Below, piece by piece: positions 2,781 to 48,372 of a DNA stretch of 48,466 bases. Position numbers and translations under genes: made by a program. The stretch lies in the IMG/VR virus record IMGVR_UViG_3300021559_000003, positions 1-48,466 of that record; one strand, written 5' to 3'. Positions within the stretch are counted from its first letter, which is position 1. Every line of letters starts with the position of its first letter. The notes beneath the pieces were generated by a model, which ran no database searches, was not told where the DNA came from, and saw only the letters and a list, made by a program, of their open reading frames with translations. The DNA is from a virus.

Positions 2781-3079
2781 GGCTTCTTCTCCGAAGACGG
2801 CTCCCCGCACTTTATATGTCCATCACGCAATGCTCGGCAGTGGGATTCGATCCACTTTCCAATTCCCGGAATATCTGGAACGGTTGTCATTGATTCGTGC
2901 GGTAGACAGTTATCGTAATAGCACGTGCCTCCAGAGCACTTGAGGCCAGGAGTGCAGACTTGCTGCGACTCGGGCTTCTGGGCGTGAGCGGTCAGCACTT
3001 GCAACGACAGCCAAGTTGCCAAAGGTACGACAATCGCAACCATCCACAAATTCGCAGAGTTGCGCTTGAGCCAGTTCAT
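2777..3079 (-). CDS. membrane-anchored or exported Cys-containing protein
   Basis: A 100-aa protein. A short basic start (NWLKRNSANLW) is followed by a hydrophobic helix (residues about 12-30, MVAIVVPLATWLSLQVL) and then THAQ, a possible signal peptidase I site. The remaining 65 residues carry six cysteines (CTPGLKC, CYYDNC, SHC, KCGE), as expected for a disulphide-bonded domain outside the cytoplasm. The function is unknown. An ATGA overlap joins it to the zinc-rich gene upstream. Confidence 0.6.
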   Translation of the reverse strand: MNWLKRNSANLWMVAIVVPLATWLSLQVLTAHAQKPESQQVCTPGLKCSGGTCYYDNCLPHESMTTVPDIPGIGKWIESHCRALRDGHIKCGEPSSEKKP

Positions 3080-4332
3080 TTCGTCTCCTTCCCCTCAGCC
3101 TGAGCGAGAGCGGCGCGGGCCCAATCTAGACCAACGCAGAACCAGTGACGTATTGCGTCGATGTGCGGCTCTAACTTTTCTCGCTCATCCTCCCCGAGCG
3201 AAGCCCAGTATCCCTCCCACGAGTTCGGCGCTTTTGCACTGTCGCTCTCTCGTTGCGGCTCGCTGCTATGCCGAGGACCATCCCCTTCCGTAGCCTCGTT
3301 GTCGTCACAACCATTTCGTGCACTAGTCCGCAATCGCAGCACCCCACTCGGAACGGAATCCGATTCTTGACTGTCCACCCCTCGCCGTTCAGACGTTTGA
3401 CGTATTTCATGTAGCTCCTTTGTTAATCTCACGATCTCTTTCTGTGCGGAGAGAAGCGCTGCCTCCACATGAGTAAGCTTCTTAGCGAATTGCGCTACCG
3501 CATTTTCCTCGGCGGCAAGCTGGTCGCGGAGTGTGGCGTTTTCGTTGAGCAACTCTGGAATATTCAAGTTGCTCCTGTACTGCTCAGCGCTCCGAGGATC
3601 AGCCGGAACTGTGTACGCATGATCTTCGCAACGCTGATGCCTTTGGCTATCTCCGAGCGCTGAAATCACGCCCGCCTTCTTATCGCACAATTCACACTTT
3701 GAAGCCGGGACTGGCGGTACGGCGCAGGTTGTGCAGAACATTTGATCCGCTACCCACTTGTGACGCCAAAGCTTTTCGCCGCGAATATCAACAAGTTCTG
3801 GCTTCTGAAACACTGGCTGGCCGTTCTCTGTCTTCCCCGTTTCGCACATGACGCAGCGTGAAACTGGCGGTACGGCGGGTTCGTATCCTGTTCCATGACA
3901 GACTTCGCACGATGTATTACCAACCCATCCACGACACAAGTGACAGTTCGGCGCGGCCCCCTGAGGCGGGAGAGTGTGCCACCGATCAGGGCATCCAGTC
4001 TCTACGTTATCTGAGAATTTACGTTTACCCTTACACGTTAGGCAAGTCTCCTGTCTCGCATCACTCATTGCGGACCTTTCTTGTTTCTTGCGAAATTCCG
4101 CATCGTAGTCATCCGCATCTAGCTCGCTAGCCTGACTGTATGCAGGAGCGTTCAATTCCTCCATTCTGTCCCAGAATCGTGTTACCCCTTCTTCACCAAA
4201 CTCTCGGCGAATGAGTGCTTCCTGTTGTAAGATTTCCAGATCGTCCTTGGAAAGATTAGGTAGATTGAACCGCGCTGGACGGTTCCCGCCGGATCGTCTT
4301 GCCGCTCGATTAAATGCTCCGCGTTCGCTCAT
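3076..4332 (-). CDS. zinc-rich, coiled-coil protein with DnaJ-like Cys repeats
   Basis: A 418-aa protein of unknown function. Residues 1-90 are charged and helical. Residues about 95-235 carry repeated CxxC pairs (CLTCKG, CHLCRG, CEVCHGTGYE, CVMC, CTTC, CELC). Several fit the CxxCxGxG signature of the DnaJ central zinc domain. Residues about 255-310 form a leucine/glutamate coiled coil, followed by a Ser/Asp/Glu-rich linker and a Trp-containing C-terminal helix. It starts at an ATG overlapping the previous TGA and is followed by an ATGA. A second DnaJ-like Cys cluster in this genome is in the GroES-like protein at 16016-16846. Confidence 0.65.
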   Translation of the reverse strand: MSERGAFNRAARRSGGNRPARFNLPNLSKDDLEILQQEALIRREFGEEGVTRFWDRMEELNAPAYSQASELDADDYDAEFRKKQERSAMSDARQETCLTCKGKRKFSDNVETGCPDRWHTLPPQGAAPNCHLCRGWVGNTSCEVCHGTGYEPAVPPVSRCVMCETGKTENGQPVFQKPELVDIRGEKLWRHKWVADQMFCTTCAVPPVPASKCELCDKKAGVISALGDSQRHQRCEDHAYTVPADPRSAEQYRSNLNIPELLNENATLRDQLAAEENAVAQFAKKLTHVEAALLSAQKEIVRLTKELHEIRQTSERRGVDSQESDSVPSGVLRLRTSARNGCDDNEATEGDGPRHSSEPQRESDSAKAPNSWEGYWASLGEDEREKLEPHIDAIRHWFCVGLDWARAALAQAEGKETK

Positions 4333-12288: not shown

Positions 12289-12479
12289 TCTCCTTTCGTC
12301 CCGCAACTGATGAGCAGAACCCCGTCAATGTTTTTGACCACAGCCGGGTCACCACCATTGCCAGGGCAGGAGATTGCGACCACGCTCTGGCTTATGTGCG
12401 CGATCTTGTAGAAGTTCTTGGGTTTATCGGCAGCGATTGCAAGGCCGACTAAGAGCAAAGCAACAACGATTGTTCTCAT
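12285..12479 (-). CDS. exported small protein with signal peptide
   Basis: MRTIVVALLLVGLAIAADKP is a classic Sec signal (basic start, hydrophobic core, A-I-A before ADKP). The mature part is about 47 residues with two cysteines (SCPGN, ISCG) that could form a disulphide. The ATG overlaps the TGA of the HNH gene above. Exported early phage proteins sometimes act in superinfection exclusion, but that is only a possibility here. Confidence 0.6.
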   Translation of the reverse strand: MRTIVVALLLVGLAIAADKPKNFYKIAHISQSVVAISCPGNGGDPAVVKNIDGVLLISCGTKGE

Positions 12480-12934
12480 AAACCGATGATCCCCTTTGAA
12501 CGTTTATGTTTCTTGCGTAACTTATTGCATTCACGGCAAACTCTGTAAGTCTTGGTGCTTCTTACGAGATAGGTGGTTTCAGGTGTGAGAGGATGGCCCC
12601 GCTTGCAATGGGTGTGATTCTGGTTTGCGTGTCGGCCTTTTGCGATGCAGTCCGCTACGTTGTCTTGGCGAGTGCCTTCAAAGATATGCTCCCACCGAAC
12701 ACAGCGCGGATTGTCGCAACGATGTAGTGCGCAAGAGTTCGGCCACCGCCCATGCTGCAAGAAGAACGCTAGACGGTTGCCCCTGATTTCTCTGCGCGAG
12801 CCGATATCCCTGATGAGGGGGTAGCCGTTGGAACTGAATCCACCAGTCCATTCCCAGCATTCACCTTGCGGCCCGAAGCCCGGAGTCTTATCGACCTTCG
12901 CCCAAAACCGTTCTTCTAATGTGCCTGATCGCAT
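12476..12934 (-). CDS. HNH endonuclease (HNH_3 type)
   Basis: A 152-aa nuclease. It starts MRSGTLEERFWAKVDKTPGF, followed by GECWEWTGGFSSNGYP, NRLAFFLQHG, then ALHRCDNPRCVRWEHIFEGT with the His-Asn core, and the tail HCKRGHPL plus CREC. It is the same family as 2271-2780, with the same closing motif. It is probably a free-standing homing enzyme lodged in the early operon. Confidence 0.85.
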   Translation of the reverse strand: MRSGTLEERFWAKVDKTPGFGPQGECWEWTGGFSSNGYPLIRDIGSRREIRGNRLAFFLQHGRWPNSCALHRCDNPRCVRWEHIFEGTRQDNVADCIAKGRHANQNHTHCKRGHPLTPETTYLVRSTKTYRVCRECNKLRKKHKRSKGIIGL

Positions 12935-15810: not shown

Positions 15811-16019
15811 TGTGCCTGCTTCACAGTTATGTTCCGGTCGCGGCGATGCAGCGTGAGGAGCCAGTGCCCACGGATATGACACGGGTGACCGGCGAGTACG
15901 CGGCTGGCATCGCCATTCCCAAGACGGACATTCTTTGGCGCTGTTCAGGGTGCGGGCGCGTGAAGAGTACGGATATTCATGGTCGATGGTCTCTGGACCA
16001 GATTCGAGGGCAGCAGTGA
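15810..16019 (+). CDS. zinc-ribbon protein, 69 aa
   Basis: The protein starts MCLLHSYVPVAAMQREEPVP. The C-terminal WRCSGCGRVKSTDIHGRWSL contains CxxC and a Trp-rich close that resembles zinc knuckles in phage regulators. The start and stop are set by 1-2 base overlaps with both neighbours. Confidence 0.6.
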   Translation: MCLLHSYVPVAAMQREEPVPTDMTRVTGEYAAGIAIPKTDILWRCSGCGRVKSTDIHGRWSLDQIRGQQ

Positions 16020-16846
16020 AGGAACCGACGATCGGCAACGCGGCGACGGAGTTGGGGCAGTTCGAGAAGGGTGCGGACTTTGACGGAATCAACAAGTCGG
16101 GTCTGATCGAGGCGCCGGCTGTGCTCGATGTTGACGCGGAGCGCAAAGGAAACGACGTGCACCTGGATCCAATCCGCGGAGTTCGGCCGATTGTCCCAAA
16201 GAAGTCTGGCGTCGAACTTCAATACACCCCACTCCATCAGACCCTCGCAGAGATTGTGGAAGTACCGGAATTCGCGCTCGGCCGTGTGGGGAAGGTCAGA
16301 ACCTCGCCCGAACGCATGATGCAGTTGAGTACGCGGACTCTAAGACAGGCTTTGGTGTGGTACGCGATCACGCCGAATCAGGAGATGGCGGCCCTGGACC
16401 TGCCTCCAGATTCCAATGGACGTGTCATAGTCCGGATGGATACCCTCGAATCGGAGTATTCGTGTCAAGTTTGTCGGGGCCTGGGCTATGAAGAAACCGA
16501 AGTCTGTGAAACCTGTCGCGGCGAGCAGTCCAGAGACGGACAGGATTGCGATTCCTGTAAAGTCCTCGGCTACGCTCGGGATACCAAATGGAGTTGTGGT
16601 CACCGTGCATGTACATCGTGCCGGGGTTTTGGATGGCGTAGCGGAATCGTTATTCCTGAAGTGGCTCAAGGAAGGCCAGTCACTGGCGTCGTTGTGTCCT
16701 GCGGTCCAAATACTTGTGTGGTGCGACTCGGAGATCGCGTCCTCCATTCCAAGTTTGCGGGCCATGCTCTGACCACTCCGGGGCATGAGACGTTTACCGT
16801 GATGAGGGAGAGTGAAGTGATTGCGTTGATTGAGGAGAGAAAATGA
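16016..16846 (+). CDS. GroES-like co-chaperone with DnaJ-type zinc module in the mobile-loop position
   Basis: A 276-aa protein. Residues about 209-273 read as the body of GroES/Cpn10: SGIVIPEVAQGRPVTGVVVS, LGDRVLHSKFAGHA, TFTVMRESEVIALIEE. Residues 134-141 (NGRVIVRM) match the first GroES strand (DRVIVK). Between them, where GroES has its ~16-residue mobile loop, lies a ~60-residue Cys-rich module: pairs 150/153, 164/167, 178/181 and 199/202 plus C194, with the CxxCxGxG signature of the DnaJ central domain. The hydrophobic tripeptide that binds GroEL (IVL in E. coli GroES) is kept as IVI (211-213). Residues 1-130 are unassigned. GTG 16016 overlaps the previous TGA. T4 Gp31 is a known phage GroES analogue. 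I infer that this protein forms a heptameric lid for host GroEL. Confidence 0.72.
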   Translation: MKEPTIGNAATELGQFEKGADFDGINKSGLIEAPAVLDVDAERKGNDVHLDPIRGVRPIVPKKSGVELQYTPLHQTLAEIVEVPEFALGRVGKVRTSPERMMQLSTRTLRQALVWYAITPNQEMAALDLPPDSNGRVIVRMDTLESEYSCQVCRGLGYEETEVCETCRGEQSRDGQDCDSCKVLGYARDTKWSCGHRACTSCRGFGWRSGIVIPEVAQGRPVTGVVVSCGPNTCVVRLGDRVLHSKFAGHALTTPGHETFTVMRESEVIALIEERK

Positions 16847-17421: not shown

Positions 17422-17716
17422 GTTCCTGACCATCCCCGAAATCATCCCCTTCAAAGAAGACTCTCTCACCGAGCGCGGCGAGCGGGTCTATACTCACCTG
17501 AAAATCGAACTGATCCGGCCCTGGGGGAAACCGTTTGAGAAAGTCATTCAGGCCGAGAACGGTATCGGGTTCACCGAAGAGTGGATTGAGGATACGACCA
17601 AGGGGTGTCTCACGCAGTTGGAAAAGGACTTTCCGACCGACTTCTATAAAGTAGTCTACGTGAAACCGAATCATGTGCGGTTCGAGTATGTCGGGCCGCG
17701 AGGGATGGTGCAGTGA
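17414..17716 (+). CDS. hypothetical protein, 100 aa
   Basis: The protein starts at TTG 17414, inside the end of the previous gene, and reads MPKFLTIPEIIPFKEDSLTE. It has alternating strands and a central helix, with FTEEWIEDTTKGCLTQLEKD as the most regular part. No cysteine pairs or membrane spans. The function is unknown. Its end overlaps the next start. Confidence 0.5.
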   Translation: MPKFLTIPEIIPFKEDSLTERGERVYTHLKIELIRPWGKPFEKVIQAENGIGFTEEWIEDTTKGCLTQLEKDFPTDFYKVVYVKPNHVRFEYVGPRGMVQ

Positions 17717-18252
17717 TGCAACTCTACGAAGCTGAACGGATGCGCGACTGGCCCATGATCGTGACCGCGGTAAAGTGCCCAACGTGCCTTGCCATGCCGG
17801 GAGATGTTTGCTATCAACTCGGAATGCCGATGCGCACCCCGAGGCTGGACTTTCATGCTTCGCGCAAGGCCGCGGCACTGAATCAATGGAATCATCCGGA
17901 GGTGAAAGACGATGCCAGCGAACCCGGCAGCGCGCCAGTCGAAGATCATGCAAGTAGCGTTTCTGGACTGGCAGAGAGTCCCGCACCAGATCATCCTGAA
18001 GGAGCTCCGGCTGTCCCACCCCCACCTGAACACGATTCGCCAGGATCCGCTCTACCTCCAGACAGTGGAGGAACTGAAGGCGGAATTCAAGGAGAAGCTC
18101 CTGTCGGCGCCGGGGACGAACGAACTGGTGAAGACCTTGGGCTACGCCATGGGGATCGCGACCAAGAAGCTAGTCCACATTCTGGCGAGTCCGAGAACCT
18201 CGAACAAGGACTTGATTTCGGCAGCCCGACTGGTCGCCCAGATGGACGGTAG
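17713..18252 (+). CDS. zinc-finger protein with open overlapping extension
   Basis: The N-terminal ~65 residues carry CPTCLAMPGDVCYQLGMPMR, TPRLDFHASRKAAAL, the CxxC-x4-GxxC...H..R small phage zinc module also seen at 665-847. From about residue 67 the frame runs over the terminase small-subunit-like gene (17912, +1 phase). It encodes a Pro/Gly/Glu-rich stretch that looks unselected and stops at 18252. The zinc module is real. The 110-residue tail may be an artefact of a stop-poor frame. Confidence 0.5.
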   Translation: MMQLYEAERMRDWPMIVTAVKCPTCLAMPGDVCYQLGMPMRTPRLDFHASRKAAALNQWNHPEVKDDASEPGSAPVEDHASSVSGLAESPAPDHPEGAPAVPPPPEHDSPGSALPPDSGGTEGGIQGEAPVGAGDERTGEDLGLRHGDRDQEASPHSGESENLEQGLDFGSPTGRPDGR

Positions 18253-18937: not shown

Positions 18938-20800
18938 ATGCCTGACACCCTCCCTCCCGGCCTAGAGCCTGTCCGTGACCAACTCCTAGAAAACCCTCCC
19001 GCCAAGTGGAAGGAAATCCCTATCTATGACGACGCCTCGGAAGCTACCAAGAAAGCAGTTCTTCGGCTCAATGCCCTCGGGAGTCTCTTCTACTTCTCCA
19101 AAGTCGTCCTTGGACATTCCCGGCTCTCTGCGAATCTACACCGATACATGTGTTCCGAACTCGAGCGCGATACCGTGCGACTCGTCATGGAAATTCCGCG
19201 AGATCACTTCAAAACGACTATCGCTTCTGTATCAGCTCCCATGTGGTGGGCACTCCCTTTCACCAACCAAGATGAAGACCTGATGTACCAGTTGGGCTAC
19301 GACGAAGCGTGGATGAAGTGGATGCAGCGCGCGCACAATGCCGCAAATCGCACACTCATCGCCTCAGAGACGATCCAGAACGCTCGCAAGATTGGGGTGA
19401 AGATCGACGGCCACTACCACTCGAATGCTTTCTTCCGGTTCCTGTTCTCCTCGATCATTCCCAAGGATGACGACCGCTGGAACCAGGATTCGATGACTCA
19501 TCGCCGTCCTGCGGGCGAGTATCACGGGGAAGGGACTTATGATTTCATCGGTGTCAAGGGTGCACTTCAGTCACGGCACTACGATCGTCAGGTACTTGAT
19601 GATCTCGTCGGAGAGAAGGCTATCCTTTCTGACTCTGTGCTGGAATCCACCATTGATTGGGTGCGAAAGCTTCCCGGATGTTTCGATTCCGATCCCGATC
19701 GACCTCATGCACTTGCTGACCAACTATTCATCGGTAACCGTTGGTCGATGCGCGATGTCAATTCTTGGCTGAGAAAGAATGTTCCTAACCTGAACTTCAT
19801 CTCGCACTCGGCGGAAGGTGGATGCTGCGCCATGCACCCGCCCCATCAAATCATCTTTCCCGAAGAGATTACATGGGAAAAGCTGGCGGAATTCAGAGCG
19901 ATTTTCGGAAACTACAATTACGCCGCGCAGATGCTGAATAACCCCGTGGATCAAGAGGCAGTCAAGTTCAAAGACCACTGGCTCAGACACTATTCCGTCG
20001 ATGTCTGGAAAGAACCGAAGGGCTCCGACGTCATCGCCAACTGGCAGCAGTTGTCCTCCTTCAATCGAGGTAATCTAAGTGGAAACCCCGACGATGTAGC
20101 CGAATCGCAAGGCATGACTCCGAAACGGCTGAAAGTAGCTATCAAGCATGAAACACAGCCAGGAGAAACCATCGAAGACATCCGAGCCGGGGATTTGGAC
20201 CGTTTTGCGTTCATGGACCCAAACCATGCCGAGGAAAGAGGGCGCGCGTGCAACGCAATTCTTGTTGTTGGAGTCTACAACCGCCCGCCTGCCAAGCGAA
20301 GGATCTACCTGCTTGATTGTTGGTCGAAAGCCTCTCAACACGAAGAGTGGCTAGAAGCCGCGCTGGGGAATTCTCCGGGGAAACGTGGCTTGGTTCTGAA
20401 GTGGAGATGCCATGTGCTGTTCATCGAATCGGAAGTTGCAGGCCAGTCGGGCTGGAAGTTCGCGATTCGCGAGCGTATGAGAAAGCTTGGACTCGATGCT
20501 TCATTCTCGCTTCGGCCGCTCAAGACCGAGCGCAGCGCGAATGCTAAGAAAAACAGGATTGATGCCATGGAGCCGGTGTTTGAAAACGGGCTATTCTGGG
20601 TGCCGCGGTTTGGCTGTCAGGAGTGGAAGACTGAATTCAGCCAGTACCCTAACGGAGCAACGATGGACCTCATGGATTTAACTGGATATATACCACAGTG
20701 CCTCAGTGCAGGCAGTCGTCTACAAACTCGAGATTGGGTCAAAGAAGAACTACAGCGATCAAAACAGGCGCTCATGAACGTAGGCGTGGCTGGCTATTAA
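18938..20800 (+). CDS. terL: terminase large subunit
   Basis: A 620-aa protein, the DNA-packaging motor ATPase and nuclease. The ATPase half holds a Walker A variant PRDHFKTTIAS (87-97), in which the usual GxGK is replaced by DHFK as in several podophage terminases, and Walker B VLDDLVGE (219-226). The nuclease half has the RNase H-fold acids: FAFMDPN (D427), VLFIESE (about 493-499) and a later Asp (RIDAME). Length is normal for TerL. A minus-strand HNH gene overlaps its last 29 bases. Confidence 0.9.
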   Translation: MPDTLPPGLEPVRDQLLENPPAKWKEIPIYDDASEATKKAVLRLNALGSLFYFSKVVLGHSRLSANLHRYMCSELERDTVRLVMEIPRDHFKTTIASVSAPMWWALPFTNQDEDLMYQLGYDEAWMKWMQRAHNAANRTLIASETIQNARKIGVKIDGHYHSNAFFRFLFSSIIPKDDDRWNQDSMTHRRPAGEYHGEGTYDFIGVKGALQSRHYDRQVLDDLVGEKAILSDSVLESTIDWVRKLPGCFDSDPDRPHALADQLFIGNRWSMRDVNSWLRKNVPNLNFISHSAEGGCCAMHPPHQIIFPEEITWEKLAEFRAIFGNYNYAAQMLNNPVDQEAVKFKDHWLRHYSVDVWKEPKGSDVIANWQQLSSFNRGNLSGNPDDVAESQGMTPKRLKVAIKHETQPGETIEDIRAGDLDRFAFMDPNHAEERGRACNAILVVGVYNRPPAKRRIYLLDCWSKASQHEEWLEAALGNSPGKRGLVLKWRCHVLFIESEVAGQSGWKFAIRERMRKLGLDASFSLRPLKTERSANAKKNRIDAMEPVFENGLFWVPRFGCQEWKTEFSQYPNGATMDLMDLTGYIPQCLSAGSRLQTRDWVKEELQRSKQALMNVGVAGY

Positions 20801-21314
20801 AAAATGCGAATTCTCCGTAACTGCGATTCGCGCCCTCTCGGTATGCTTTGATAGCTTCTTCTTTGGAATCGTAGCGACCTAGATTCTTCATCTTTCCATT
20901 GAATCGGCAGTAAGCCATCCATTTTCCTCGAGACTTATCCCAATGAACTCCGGGGTGGCCGCTGGTGTTATTTCGAGCGATGCTACGGTTCACATTGTTT
21001 TGCCAATCGGCGCAGACTCTCAAATTCGCTCGTCGATTGTCCAATGTGTCGTGATTCCAGTGGTCTACGATACGATCATCCTCGACGCCACAGATAAACC
21101 GAGCCATATATATGAACGTTCGGTCTTTTCCGTGGCGAACGGCGTAGAAGCTTTTCGTTGCCGAGTTCCACCACGCATACCAATTCCACTGATTCAGCCA
21201 TTCATAGTCACTGGCATCAACTAGTGTGTTTTGGTTTTGGCTTAACGGAATGATCTTGTACGATGGGTCGGGCGGCTGGGAAACGTCGTGTCGGTGTACA
21301 CGATATCTGGTCAT
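20772..21314 (-). CDS. HNH homing endonuclease with AP2 domain
   Basis: A 180-aa protein transcribed against its neighbours. Start ATG 21314 has AGGAG 4 bases upstream. The HNH core is VDHWNHDTLDNRRANLRVC (83-101, D84, H85, N93, R95). The AP2 domain follows (SGHPGVHWDKSRGKWMAYCR, KNLGRYDSKEEAIKAYREGA). The enzyme family consists of free-standing homing endonucleases. It sits between terminase and portal, the conserved junction such enzymes prefer. Its AT-richer codons and its orientation show recent entry. Confidence 0.9.
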   Translation of the reverse strand: MTRYRVHRHDVSQPPDPSYKIIPLSQNQNTLVDASDYEWLNQWNWYAWWNSATKSFYAVRHGKDRTFIYMARFICGVEDDRIVDHWNHDTLDNRRANLRVCADWQNNVNRSIARNNTSGHPGVHWDKSRGKWMAYCRFNGKMKNLGRYDSKEEAIKAYREGANRSYGEFAFFNSQPRLRS

Positions 21315-21365
21315 GATGCTCCTGTGACAGCAGGAAAGTCGTGCTAGACTCAGCCGCATAATACC

Positions 21366-23324
21366 ATGCCAATACCTGCCGAACTCCCACTCACGAAGCA
21401 CTTTTCAAGCGAAAGAATCATCGGCATCGAGAAGTACGCGAGTGAGCGTCTTGAGTCTCTCGTGCGAGGGCTGAGAGATTTAAGAACAGACAAGATCAAG
21501 CGATTCAGAAAGATTTACGATGGCACGCCTCGCGAGAAAACCAAGTCGTTTCCCTGGCAGAACGCCTCGAACCTCGTCATCCAGCTTGTAGGCTCGTTCT
21601 CCGATCAGTTAGTCGCCAAGATTGTGATGTCGGAATTCGGCGTCGACCCATTCTGGCCGGCTGAACTGGTAGGCGAGTTCGAGCGCGACTTCCATGCCGA
21701 AGAGATGCGCTCTGCGGTTCAGGAAATGATGGAAGTTCAGGCGCTAGAACCTAAGCTGCTCAATCTCCTGCCCAAGTACACAATCTGGACGCGGACATTC
21801 GTGAAGTATGGCTTTGGCGCAATCAAGGCCATGCCAGAGAAAACCATCGAGCAAGTCGCGATGGTCGAGGATCAAGGCCGGGTGTTGTTCGAGGATTACG
21901 TCAAGCACGAAGGGCCAATCTGTCTCCCCATCATGTTTGAAGACTTCCTCATGCCTGCGACCACGATTGAACTGGAGCGAGCGCCATTCATCGCTCAACG
22001 AGCCCGGTTGCAGCGGTTTCAGGTTGAGCAGTTCCGTTGGGACAAGACTTTCAATCGTGGGGTCATCACGGAAATTCTGAAGCGGCCGACACGGACGGGC
22101 CCCTCTGACACGCAGCGTGACATCGAGAATGAGTCAGGAGCGCGAACCGATAGCGGCTCGACTGAGGAAGAGTGGGACTTCTACGAGATGCACTTCCCTT
22201 ATCAGGTTTTGGGGAAGCGGTTCCAGCTCATCCTGACCGGCTGTGCGGACGACATGGGCACGGATCTCCGAGTCGCCAAGTCGGTGTTCAACTGGCTTCC
22301 GGACAATGCCCTGCCCTACATCGGAGCTCGGCTTGGCAACGATGGAGAGAGAGCGTATGGCAAAGGCTTTTGTGAAATGCTCCGCGATTACCAAGAAGAA
22401 ATATCCGCTATTCACAATCGCCGCGGCGATGCTTCGACGGCAGCCAATACCAACATTTTCCGTTTCTCTCCGGGACAGCAACTCGATGCGCAATTTTCGA
22501 TCTATCCTATGGCTGGGATCACAGCGGAGAAGGATGGTTTTGAGGTTGTGCCTCTTGGACGCACGGCGAATGAAACCATTAAAGACGAGCAACTAGTTCT
22601 GCAGGAAGCGCAGGATCGCGCCGGGGTAGGGCCGTCCAGTTCTGGTCAGGGTGCCGGGACGGTAAACAAAAAGGGCGCCTACTCGGCTATGGGAACGTTC
22701 GCCGTAATGCAGGAAGGCAACACACGCGCGAACCTGAATGTGACCGAATTCCGCCAGTCGCACTATAGCCTCGGCAGTCTGGTGCTGGCCTATCACGCGC
22801 ACTTTGGTATCCCGGAGAAAGACAAGAAAGCCTACGGAAAGCAGGCGCAGTGGCTGGACAAGGCCTTGGATCTGGTGAAGCAAGGCCGACTCATCATTCC
22901 AATCCGTGCTGCGACGGGCTCGGTCAACAAGGAAATCGAGAAGCAAAACTTGATGCTCCTGCTCAATAACTGGCGCGCGCATGGGCAGATGGTTTCCCAA
23001 CTCTTGCAACAAGCCTCGAATCCGATGGCTCCGCCCCAGTTGCAGGATTATCTTGGGCAATTGATTCTCGGTGGAAACCTGCTGATGACCAAGATTTGCA
23101 AGGACTTTGGCATCTCCGATCCAAGCTTCATGATTCCTGAGCCGATGGGGATTCAGGAAAAGGCGGATGCGTTCAAGAAGCAGGTCGATCAGGCCAAGGC
23201 GTTGCAGGCACAGCAAGAGCAGCGGAAATTAGGGCAAGGTGGACAGCCTCCGGGAGTGCAAATGCCGCAAGTTCAGGCCGAGGGGGCGCCGGGGGCGGGA
23301 TCAGGGGAGCCGCAAATCCAATGA
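21366..23324 (+). CDS. portal protein
   Basis: A 652-aa protein. The portal is the dodecameric ring at the capsid vertex through which DNA is packaged and ejected. It follows the terminase, is followed by a small protein and the scaffold, and has the expected size. Family features seen are the N-terminal KSFPWQNASNL (W..N motif of podovirus-like portals), the LPYIGARLGNDGERAYGKGF/CEMLRDYQEEISAIHN helix region (about 335-375), and a Gln/Ala/Pro-rich disordered C-terminus of about 60 residues. No protease or MuF fusion is seen. Confidence 0.85.
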   Translation: MPIPAELPLTKHFSSERIIGIEKYASERLESLVRGLRDLRTDKIKRFRKIYDGTPREKTKSFPWQNASNLVIQLVGSFSDQLVAKIVMSEFGVDPFWPAELVGEFERDFHAEEMRSAVQEMMEVQALEPKLLNLLPKYTIWTRTFVKYGFGAIKAMPEKTIEQVAMVEDQGRVLFEDYVKHEGPICLPIMFEDFLMPATTIELERAPFIAQRARLQRFQVEQFRWDKTFNRGVITEILKRPTRTGPSDTQRDIENESGARTDSGSTEEEWDFYEMHFPYQVLGKRFQLILTGCADDMGTDLRVAKSVFNWLPDNALPYIGARLGNDGERAYGKGFCEMLRDYQEEISAIHNRRGDASTAANTNIFRFSPGQQLDAQFSIYPMAGITAEKDGFEVVPLGRTANETIKDEQLVLQEAQDRAGVGPSSSGQGAGTVNKKGAYSAMGTFAVMQEGNTRANLNVTEFRQSHYSLGSLVLAYHAHFGIPEKDKKAYGKQAQWLDKALDLVKQGRLIIPIRAATGSVNKEIEKQNLMLLLNNWRAHGQMVSQLLQQASNPMAPPQLQDYLGQLILGGNLLMTKICKDFGISDPSFMIPEPMGIQEKADAFKKQVDQAKALQAQQEQRKLGQGGQPPGVQMPQVQAEGAPGAGSGEPQIQ

Positions 23325-25969: not shown

Positions 25970-26929
25970 GTGACTATGGTGCGGAATCAATTCTTCCAGG
26001 CAATGAGCATCGACGTTGCCCATAACTTTATAGAATTTCTTGACCTGCGTCAGCGAAGTGTCCAGTTTCGCTCGATCTTCAACGTGCACCCCTCGAAGAA
26101 GGCTTACGAGGATGCCGTGCACTACTCCGGCTTTGCACCTGCGCAGCCGAAGAACGAAGGCGAAAGCATCGTCTATGACTTCTTGATCCAGGGCGGCACG
26201 CGGCGCTATGTCCATCAAACCTACGGCCTCGGCGTTCGCATGTCGTATGAGCTCATGCAGGACGATCAGACCGGGATGATGGAGCAGAGTCCCAAAGGTT
26301 TGGTGCAGTCGCACATCTTCGCCCAGGAGCAGACCGCAGGGAACGTTTTCAACCTCGGCTTCTCGAGTACAGGAACGATTGTCGATGACGGCGTGAGCCT
26401 GTTCAACAATCAGCATCCACTGCTCGGCGGGATTCAGGCAACGAATGTCGCGCCAGGGGCGGGGTCATTCTCAACCGCTGCCGGAACGTATCCCAATCGC
26501 CCGCAAGTTGATGCCGATTTGAGCTTCACGGCCCTGCAATACGCGACCATGACGTTCCAGCGAATGCCGAATGCCCGCGGGCTCGTGGTCGCCGTCAGGC
26601 CAAAGCACCTCCGGATCCCGCCAGAAATCGAGTTCATTGCCATCGAACTTCTCGGGTCCGCAGGCAAGCCGTACACCTCCGACAACGAGACAAACGCTCT
26701 GCTCGCGACGGGCCTGAGCTACGAAGTGAACACCTATTTCACTTCCGCCTCAGCATGGTTCCTCACCGGCAACAAGGATGAGCACCGTTTGATGTACTAC
26801 GAGCGGCAACCGATCTACGGCGATTACGACCGCGACTTCGATCAGCAAGCGCTGAAGTTCTTGGCGATCGCGCGATACTCGGCTGGCGCGGATACGTGGA
26901 TCAACACCTTTGGGAGCCTTGGACCGTAA
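25970..26929 (+). CDS. major capsid protein
   Basis: A 319-aa protein. GTG 25970 has GAGG 7 bases upstream, and ATG 25976 is the alternative. The sequence has the HK97-like order of an N-terminal helix (FQAMSIDVAHNFIEFLDLRQ), an E-loop region around residue 60-80, a spine helix (GLGVRMSYELMQDD), a P-domain with RPKHLRIPPEIEFIAIELLG, and the A-domain end HRLMYYERQPIYGDYDRDFD. Capsid proteins of this form self-assemble with the scaffold at 23874. Its size, and its place between head-decoration-like and small head genes, agree. It is the best candidate in the genome. Confidence 0.8.
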   Translation: MTMVRNQFFQAMSIDVAHNFIEFLDLRQRSVQFRSIFNVHPSKKAYEDAVHYSGFAPAQPKNEGESIVYDFLIQGGTRRYVHQTYGLGVRMSYELMQDDQTGMMEQSPKGLVQSHIFAQEQTAGNVFNLGFSSTGTIVDDGVSLFNNQHPLLGGIQATNVAPGAGSFSTAAGTYPNRPQVDADLSFTALQYATMTFQRMPNARGLVVAVRPKHLRIPPEIEFIAIELLGSAGKPYTSDNETNALLATGLSYEVNTYFTSASAWFLTGNKDEHRLMYYERQPIYGDYDRDFDQQALKFLAIARYSAGADTWINTFGSLGP

Positions 26930-27348: not shown

Positions 27349-27843
27349 ATGAAAATTATCCCTCTCACTCGCGGGCTCCAAACGCTGGTAGACGATGAGG
27401 ATTTCGACCAACTCAATAAGCACAAGTGGTATGCGCAGCGCTGTAAATCAGGTGACAACGTTAGGTTTTATGCGGCTCGCCGGGATGTAGTCACAAGAAA
27501 GATCGTTCTGATGCACAGGCAACTTCTCGGCTTAGAAAAACGCAGCGACCACGGCGACCACAAGAACGGTGACTCGCTGAATAACCAGCGATACAATCTT
27601 CGGCCCGCAACTCATCGACAGAATCTTTGCAACACCGGCAAGCGCAACCAAGCCACCACGTCCAAGCATAAAGGCGTTAGCTTCTACAGGAACACTGGCG
27701 AGTGGGAAAGCTATGTGTGGGTCGATGGGAAGAAGCGGCGCCAAGGATATTTCGAGACTGAGCACGAAGCGGCTTTGGGCTACAACTTCGCCGCATTGCA
27801 TCACTACGGCGAGTTCGCAGTGCTAAACGAGGTTCATGTCTGA
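27349..27843 (+). CDS. HNH homing endonuclease with AP2 domain
   Basis: A 164-aa protein starts MKIIPLTRGLQTLVDDEDFD. The family's opening (NKHKWYAQRC) is followed by the HNH core DHGDHKNGDSLNNQRYNLRP. The AP2-like domain then reads TSKHKGVSFYRNTGEWESYV, GKKRRQGYFETEHEAALGYN. It is the same subfamily as the minus-strand gene at 20772, but here oriented with transcription. It is placed between two small head-region genes. Its stop shares bases with the next ATG. Confidence 0.88.
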   Translation: MKIIPLTRGLQTLVDDEDFDQLNKHKWYAQRCKSGDNVRFYAARRDVVTRKIVLMHRQLLGLEKRSDHGDHKNGDSLNNQRYNLRPATHRQNLCNTGKRNQATTSKHKGVSFYRNTGEWESYVWVDGKKRRQGYFETEHEAALGYNFAALHHYGEFAVLNEVHV

Positions 27844-29314: not shown

Positions 29315-29878
29315 ATGAGACAAGTTCTTGAGAGATATGCCGGATACAGTGTCGAGGCAACGAATCGTCGGAGGATGTCCGCTCGAGACCGGGCAATTCG
29401 ATTGCGCACCCAAAACCCGGAGAAATATAGGGAGCAATCGGAAAAATCCAAGATTCGACTCAAGAAGTGGCGCGAAGACAATCCTGAAAAATACCGTGAG
29501 CAAGCAGCGAAGTATCGCCAGAAAAATCGTGAACGCCTGCGTGCCCAAAAGAGGAGATGGGAATTCCTCAATCCGGACAAAGGTGCAACAGCATCTCGGT
29601 ATCGCCATGAGTTCGGATTTACTCTTGATGACTGGAATCAGGAATGGGAAAGACAGGGCAAACGTTGTGCTATCTGTAAACGGACACAGCACACCAAGAA
29701 AAGGTTTCATCTTGACCACTGTCATAAAACAAATGCGATTCGCGGAATCCTTTGTCCCCGCTGTAATCGCGTTTTGGGTTTGTGTAAGGACGATCCGGAC
29801 TTGCTGCTAGAGGCGGCTAAGTACCTGAAAAGAGGTGCCTTATTGCTAACGATACCAGCGGCACAGTCTGGAGGATAG
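29315..29878 (+). CDS. HNH endonuclease of the endonuclease VII family
   Basis: A 187-aa protein. A long basic helical N-terminus with repeats NPEKYREQ (twice) and RLRTQ is followed by CAICKRTQHTKKRFHLDHCH, then GILCPRCNRVLGLCKDD, the zinc pairs and H-N-x-x core of T4 recombination endonuclease VII-like proteins. AT-rich DNA and the 46-base AT-rich gap before it (29269-29314) mark it as an insertion. Its last 37 bases overlap the next gene, whose start it seems to have displaced. Confidence 0.85.
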   Translation: MRQVLERYAGYSVEATNRRRMSARDRAIRLRTQNPEKYREQSEKSKIRLKKWREDNPEKYREQAAKYRQKNRERLRAQKRRWEFLNPDKGATASRYRHEFGFTLDDWNQEWERQGKRCAICKRTQHTKKRFHLDHCHKTNAIRGILCPRCNRVLGLCKDDPDLLLEAAKYLKRGALLLTIPAAQSGG

Positions 29879-47726: not shown

Positions 47727-47966
47727 ATGCTGCAACCGAAAGAATCGAAGTACGACGTTGCGCTCCGGGAAGTCGTCTCCGGGATTCAGGTTCTCATCTA
47801 CCGGCGCGAAACGACTCCCATCCGCGACCGGGACGAGGTGCACATAGATGTCGAGCGCCGCTTGGGGGAAATCCGGAAGTACGCCACAAATGGAAAGCGT
47901 AGTTGGCGAAAGGGCCTTTTGGAACTGGCTGCGTACTGTGTTTTTGCTGCGGCAGCAGACGACTAA
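47727..47966 (+). CDS. small lysis-cassette protein, 79 aa
   Basis: MLQPKESKYDVALREVVSGI is followed by charged sequence and a hydrophobic C-terminal helix (LLELAAYCVFAAAADD). The final helix could anchor it to a membrane. It ends 1 base before the start of the cell-wall enzyme, and its frame is separate. The function is unknown. Confidence 0.5.
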   Translation: MLQPKESKYDVALREVVSGIQVLIYRRETTPIRDRDEVHIDVERRLGEIRKYATNGKRSWRKGLLELAAYCVFAAAADD

Positions 47967-47967
47967 C

Positions 47968-48372
47968 ATGTGGACCTACGAGCAGGCGACTGGCAAATTT
48001 TACACTCCCGATGGATTCCTGACGGCCTTCGGATACTCCGGCCGCGCTGATGGCAAAAACAATCCTGAAATGCAGAGCGTGCCAAACGTTGGTCCTATCC
48101 CGGAAGGCATCTATTCGATCGGCCGCCCAGAAGATACTTTGACTCACGGGCCATTCGTGCTCCCGCTCACTCCGGATCCATCCAACCAGATGTTCTCGAG
48201 GGGCGGGTTCCTGATTCACGGTGACTCCATCGTTGCCCCCGGTTCAGCCTCCGAGGGCTGCATCATCCTCCCCCGCTTAGTCAGAAATGAGATTGCTGCG
48301 AGCCTCGATAGGACGCTCAAGGTAATCTCTGGGCCGTTTCAGGCTGCGGACTTCACTGACGAAGCTACTTGA
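47968..48372 (+). CDS. DUF2778/Tlde1-like L,D-transpeptidase-fold lysis enzyme
   Basis: A 134-aa protein starts MWTYEQATGKFYTPDGFLTA. The conserved catalytic set is visible: FLIHGD (81-86, with catalytic His84) and SEGCII (95-100, with nucleophilic Cys98), in the H-G-x8-9-S-x-G-C order of the L,D-transpeptidase fold. GPIPEGIYSIG (about 42-52) is the DUF2778 signature. Family members outside phages are bacterial effectors (Tlde1) that cut or swap cell-wall D-amino acids. At the end of the lysis cassette it is the likely endolysin. Its 3' end is repeated at position 1-33. Confidence 0.8.
   Translation: MWTYEQATGKFYTPDGFLTAFGYSGRADGKNNPEMQSVPNVGPIPEGIYSIGRPEDTLTHGPFVLPLTPDPSNQMFSRGGFLIHGDSIVAPGSASEGCIILPRLVRNEIAASLDRTLKVISGPFQAADFTDEAT

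Follow-up and report, generated by a model that had tools for sequence, protein, structure and literature searches.

A phage GroES-like protein with a DnaJ-type cysteine module inserted in its mobile loop

What can the mobile loop of a co-chaperonin carry, can the lid itself bind clients, and how do phages direct the GroEL of their host towards phage proteins? The mobile loop of GroES governs both the affinity for the chaperonin and the timing of its cycle, and known co-chaperonins have a short one; to our knowledge no other GroES holds a zinc module inside this loop. A natural test of these questions is offered by a gene of a 48,466-base IMG/VR virus record, analysed over its whole length and referred to here as the window, in which a Cys-rich and probably zinc-holding module lies in the mobile loop and is kept across a divergent phage clade. 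The gene, hereafter zinc-GroES, is an intact ORF of 276 codons at positions 16016-16846 on the plus strand, with a GTG start at 16016 and a stop codon at 16844-16846; the start overlaps the preceding ORF by 4 bp (GTGA), with GAGG upstream of it. The dN/dS values of 0.17-0.22 obtained against two near relatives show that the protein is under purifying selection.

A preceding sequence-only reading had proposed that the C-terminal part of this protein is GroES-like, and the Pfam search bore this out with a Cpn10 (PF00166) match at residues 208-272 (E=5.6e-9; 36.4 bits versus a cut-off of 21.1), so that the absence of a Cpn10 match, named there as a refutation, did not occur. The same C-terminal part is matched by the GroES family phrog_3188 in PHROG (2.7e-8), and its closest solved structures in the PDB are Cpn20/Cpn23 and bacterial GroES chains. 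Matches of the unspliced proteins to the Pfam profile begin at about position 21, and the putative first strand of the window protein is divergent (GRVIVRM preceded by PPDSN). Both observations would fit a chance arrangement of two unrelated domains, in which a zinc protein adjoins a truncated half of Cpn10 and nothing has truly been inserted. This explanation is very improbable in view of the continuity of the Cpn10 domain across the module. In silico excision of residues 148-204 restored a continuous match to profile positions 7-93 of 93 with 44.1 bits, as compared with 39.3-39.6 bits and a start at position 21 for controls in which the first-strand segment was exchanged for a shuffled version (five controls) or for another stretch of the protein (two controls). 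Ten excised relatives all gave Cpn10 matches that begin between profile positions 2 and 7 (4e-8 to 2e-16), and that of L025 stops at position 78. Residues 48-70 and 78-100 were rejected as candidates for the true first strand, as splicing either of them left the match unextended.

The segment NGRVIVRM (residues 134-141), previously read as the first GroES strand, was placed at this strand by MAFFT unprompted; the strand (SNGRVIVRMD, 16412-16441, plus strand) corresponds to GDRIIVRxD in the relatives. Against an HMM derived solely from 12 GroES proteins without an insert, two of 500 shuffled segments scored as well as the real one from the window protein and 498 were beaten, while for the segments of the relatives between zero and five of 500 shuffles equalled the real score, which argues further against two unrelated domains. 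Since the gain contributed by the window protein's own first strand is small (about 3-5 bits), the case for this strand rests on the relatives. In most of the uncut relatives the same HMM finds two collinear pieces that flank the module, with the first strand upstream of it. Alignment of the excised family with insert-free GroES by hhalign gave a probability of 99.4% over 81 columns at 31% identity with the first strand included, so the anticipated Cpn10 match on both sides of the Cys module was recovered. At the sequence level the Cpn10 barrel is complete, including its first strand. AlphaFold2 modelling gave pLDDT values of ~30-40 for the barrel and ~70-92 for the zinc module even with 14 sequences, and a run with one sequence likewise produced no confident barrel; the fold assignment therefore relies on sequence profiles. 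A Foldseek search returned no match at E<=0.001.

The remainder of the barrel (16661-16843, plus strand) has no roof hairpin; in the alignments the segment from GP to GD is reduced to ~7 residues (GPNTCVVRLGD in the window protein). The shortened roof region of the window protein has two cysteines, 229 and 234. Insert-free viral Cpn10 proteins without a roof hairpin and with Cys in the shortened roof were also observed at L007:5935-6192, where the roof holds CDDC, and at L009:1079-1354. The N-terminal extension of zinc-GroES (residues 1-125; 16016-16390, plus strand) matches no known family and contains a conserved NxxxE..G.DF motif; it is largely missing from the L025/L022 subfamily.

The module itself (16463-16624, plus strand) comprises ~55 residues between the first beta strand and the GIVIP segment, and contains four CxxC pairs, C150/153, C164/167, C178/181 and C199/202 in the window protein. 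The first and the last of them have the full CxxCxGxG form, while the middle motifs are without the second Gly, so that the DnaJ-type pairs described from sequence alone hold as four CxxC motifs and only in part as CxxCxGxG. None of the eight cysteines varies among 14 aligned sequences with identities as low as 30%, nor among 15 module sequences; the Cys-pair spacers differ widely in length among the latter, as expected of a metal-held module. The DnaJ_CXXCXGXG profile matches 13 of the 15 isolated modules (E up to 0.1, the best being 1.1e-6), and the PDB matches of the module are DnaJ and anti-TRAP. The four CxxC pairs of CxxCxGxG flavour resemble the zinc domain of type I DnaJ (PF00684), BSD2 and anti-TRAP. 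The window protein shows a weak Pfam match to the DnaJ central domain over the four pairs (0.047). In contrast to the DnaJ zinc domain, the module sits in a Cpn10 domain, every scanned full-length member stays below the PF00684 gathering cut-off (best 25.7 versus 32.7 bits), and the window protein has no J-domain match in Pfam. In DnaJ, the zinc domain coordinates two Zn and helps to bind polypeptides (PMC4428491); with its eight Cys, the zinc-GroES module would likewise hold two zinc ions.

Such a module might be merely a stabilising or redox element that stiffens a long loop and makes no contact of its own with clients or GroEL. The invariance of the eight Cys amid mostly variable module positions is consistent with this role, as is the DnaJ-like protein ZnJ6, whose zinc fingers make it heat-stable and participate in redox activity (PMC7865324). 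However, rigidity alone needs neither 55-85 residues nor two metal sites, and the Gly residues of the DnaJ signature have been preserved as well, so we regard a purely stabilising function as unlikely.

The position of the module is compatible with a preserved GroEL contact. It is the N-terminal limb of the mobile loop that takes up the module, and the C-terminal limb (SGIVIPE, 16640-16660, plus strand) matches GroES. The proposed presence of a Cys-rich module in the loop is thus upheld, but not the replacement of the loop, since the limb with GIVIP is kept. The GroEL-contact tripeptide survives as IVI in the window protein, in agreement with the initial reading, and is I/V-rich in the main clade, where the G-[I/V]-x-[I/V]-P loop is retained at 36-49% overall identity; in an outlying branch (L088 and L102) the tripeptide is weakened to IAL/IAI. 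As the insertion lies on the limb without the tripeptide, contact with GroEL could be maintained.

Homologues with the same insertion, predicted at the outset, were recovered using a junction DNA pattern that encodes CxxCxGxG, three residues and GIxIP; it gave 29 matches, to which profile scans added more. Among the 29 pattern hits, L023, L027-L029, L031, L034, L036, L037 and L044-L046 were rejected as chance matches. The family is diverse (30-49% identity) and is found on 17 or more viral contigs, with identities to the window protein ranging from 97% down to 30%. Besides the eight Cys, 14 sequences share the invariant Arg of the first strand, the Asp after this strand, the Gly and Pro of the loop, and GDRV...AG. 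Single-protein scans of viral and genome contigs yielded near-identical copies plus one plain Cpn10, or nothing, and a mixed alignment of GroES proteins proved too divergent for use as a search query. One family copy comes from a 3.3-kb contig placed in the bin of a Methanoregulaceae archaeon; this contig is probably a mis-binned phage fragment. We take the family phages to be uncultured inhabitants of soil and peat, partly from the title of one MAG (SPRUCE peat) and otherwise from general knowledge. An annotated phage collection searched with four family members returned insert-free Cpn10 only, and a zinc-insert GroES was not found in the open-licence papers searched. The combination of Cpn10 with a DnaJ-type module is a real and conserved co-chaperonin architecture that has apparently not been described.

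The zinc-GroES gene is located among packaging and head genes. Downstream of it, on the plus strand of the window, are the genes for the terminase large subunit (18938-20800; 620 aa; phrog_38, 8.2e-42), a probable portal protein (21366-23324; 652 aa; phrog_1216, 4.8e-5) and the major head protein (25970-26929; 319 aa; phrog_371, 1.4e-11), a candidate client. The terminase gene is a neighbour in all 14 family records checked, at a distance of 0.3-2.1 kb from the zinc-GroES gene; in L058 and L059 (records G007 and G008) it is on the opposite strand, unlike in the other family records. The records share the terminase at ~37-70% identity and, where the contig reaches it, the head protein at 38-92%; because they had been found through the Cpn10 protein, the shared terminase is an independent observation. 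The identities of terminase and zinc-GroES fall in parallel across the family, a pattern suggestive of vertical inheritance in a single phage lineage. In a terminase-seeded scan, all relatives at >=50% terminase identity had the gene where their contig included this region, as did a few at 37-41%; it was not seen in most of the more distant relatives, which mostly have no detectable Cpn10 nearby. A plain GroES at the same position was sought in the terminase relatives and not found.

Each of the 14 records encodes a single Cpn10, the one with the zinc insert. No Cpn60 (GroEL) was detected in 11 records scanned, which may be incomplete; the control gave a hit in all 14 genomes. For the scanned records a phage-encoded GroEL was rejected, and host GroEL is the likely partner. 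The family can be compared with known phage co-chaperonins. T4 gp31, which has no roof loops, a longer mobile loop of 22 residues and no zinc module, works with host GroEL to fold the T4 capsid protein (PMC6318259), and both gp31 and the phrog_3188 co-chaperonins share with zinc-GroES the phage Cpn10 fold without the roof hairpin. The GroES of phage DSL-LC05 also sits among packaging genes, between terminase and portal, but consists of 82 aa and has no insert. Bacterial GroES (PF00166) resembles the excised domain (31% identity) in its first strand DRVIV, the GIVIP loop, GDxVL..K[FY]AG and MRESEV, and zinc-GroES differs from it by ~60 extra residues in the mobile loop, the missing roof hairpin and the 125-residue N-terminal extension. 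A co-chaperonin with an added Cys-containing part is known from Helicobacter pylori, where the GroES protein HspA has a metal-binding domain B (PMC5116745), but that part is a C-terminal His-rich nickel tail with disulphides rather than a DnaJ-type module in the mobile loop. Human Cpn10 with foreign peptides in its mobile loop stays heptameric (PMC5118791).

Considering these data together, we propose that zinc-GroES is probably a phage co-chaperonin with a roofless Cpn10 barrel and a DnaJ-type module in the N-terminal limb of its mobile loop, which acts as a lid on host GroEL; a gp31-like lid is its most likely function. Seven copies would form the lid, as in T4 gp31, and together with host GroEL would assist the folding of phage proteins for the head and for packaging. 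The seven modules, with up to 14 zinc ions, would lie along the outer edge where lid and GroEL meet and point outwards rather than into the cage; there they may keep hold of unfolded clients or make additional contacts with the apical domains of GroEL. An outward orientation would suit the holding of clients not yet encapsulated, or contact with the outer face of the apical domains. A normal GroES cage would accommodate the 319-aa head protein, which makes enlargement of the cage a less than obvious reason for the change, and the size argument made for gp31 is not directly transferable; the terminase (620 aa) and the portal (652 aa) are larger possible clients. More tentatively, the protein could be a chimeric chaperone that unites a client-holding module of Hsp40 type and an Hsp60 lid in one polypeptide, with the lid bringing phage proteins to host GroEL or tuning the lid-GroEL contact and thereby bypassing the DnaJ/DnaK step.

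A different possibility is a repurposed Cpn10 ring that oligomerises and no longer caps GroEL, being instead a structural or assembly scaffold, for example for the head or portal, with the zinc modules as seven-fold binding arms. Erosion of the tripeptide in the L088/L102 branch, the location of the gene and the large N-terminal extension of no known family would agree with such a scaffold. The conservation of the hydrophobic loop segment and its flanking Gly and Pro across the main clade argues against it, and we consider this scenario rather doubtful. Zinc-GroES is also of interest as a scaffold, on which seven zinc modules would be displayed.

Several other features were observed in the window and in related contigs. 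Near the zinc-GroES gene, the ORF at 17713-18252 (plus strand) encodes a phage zinc-binding domain (PF24623, 1.1e-7) and, after it, a long tail of low complexity. The 418-aa ORF at 3076-4332 (minus strand) has an N-terminal CxxC-rich stretch (CLTCKGK...CHLCRG...CEVCHGTGY) that resembles DnaJ-type motifs, and Pfam gives only a sub-threshold CENP-Q match for it. ORFs resembling HNH homing endonucleases were recognised by eye at 1364-1942, 2271-2810, 12476-12934, 20772-21401, 27349-27843 and 29315-29878, one of them between terminase and portal. Near the contig end, the ORF at 47848-48372 (plus strand) has a Tlde1 domain match (2.4e-14) and is possibly a peptidoglycan-acting enzyme. Finally, a distant terminase relative contains a 162-aa ORF (L150:561-1046, minus strand) with an unusual Cys repeat of 32 tandem CxxC motifs (CSYCSDCSYC...).
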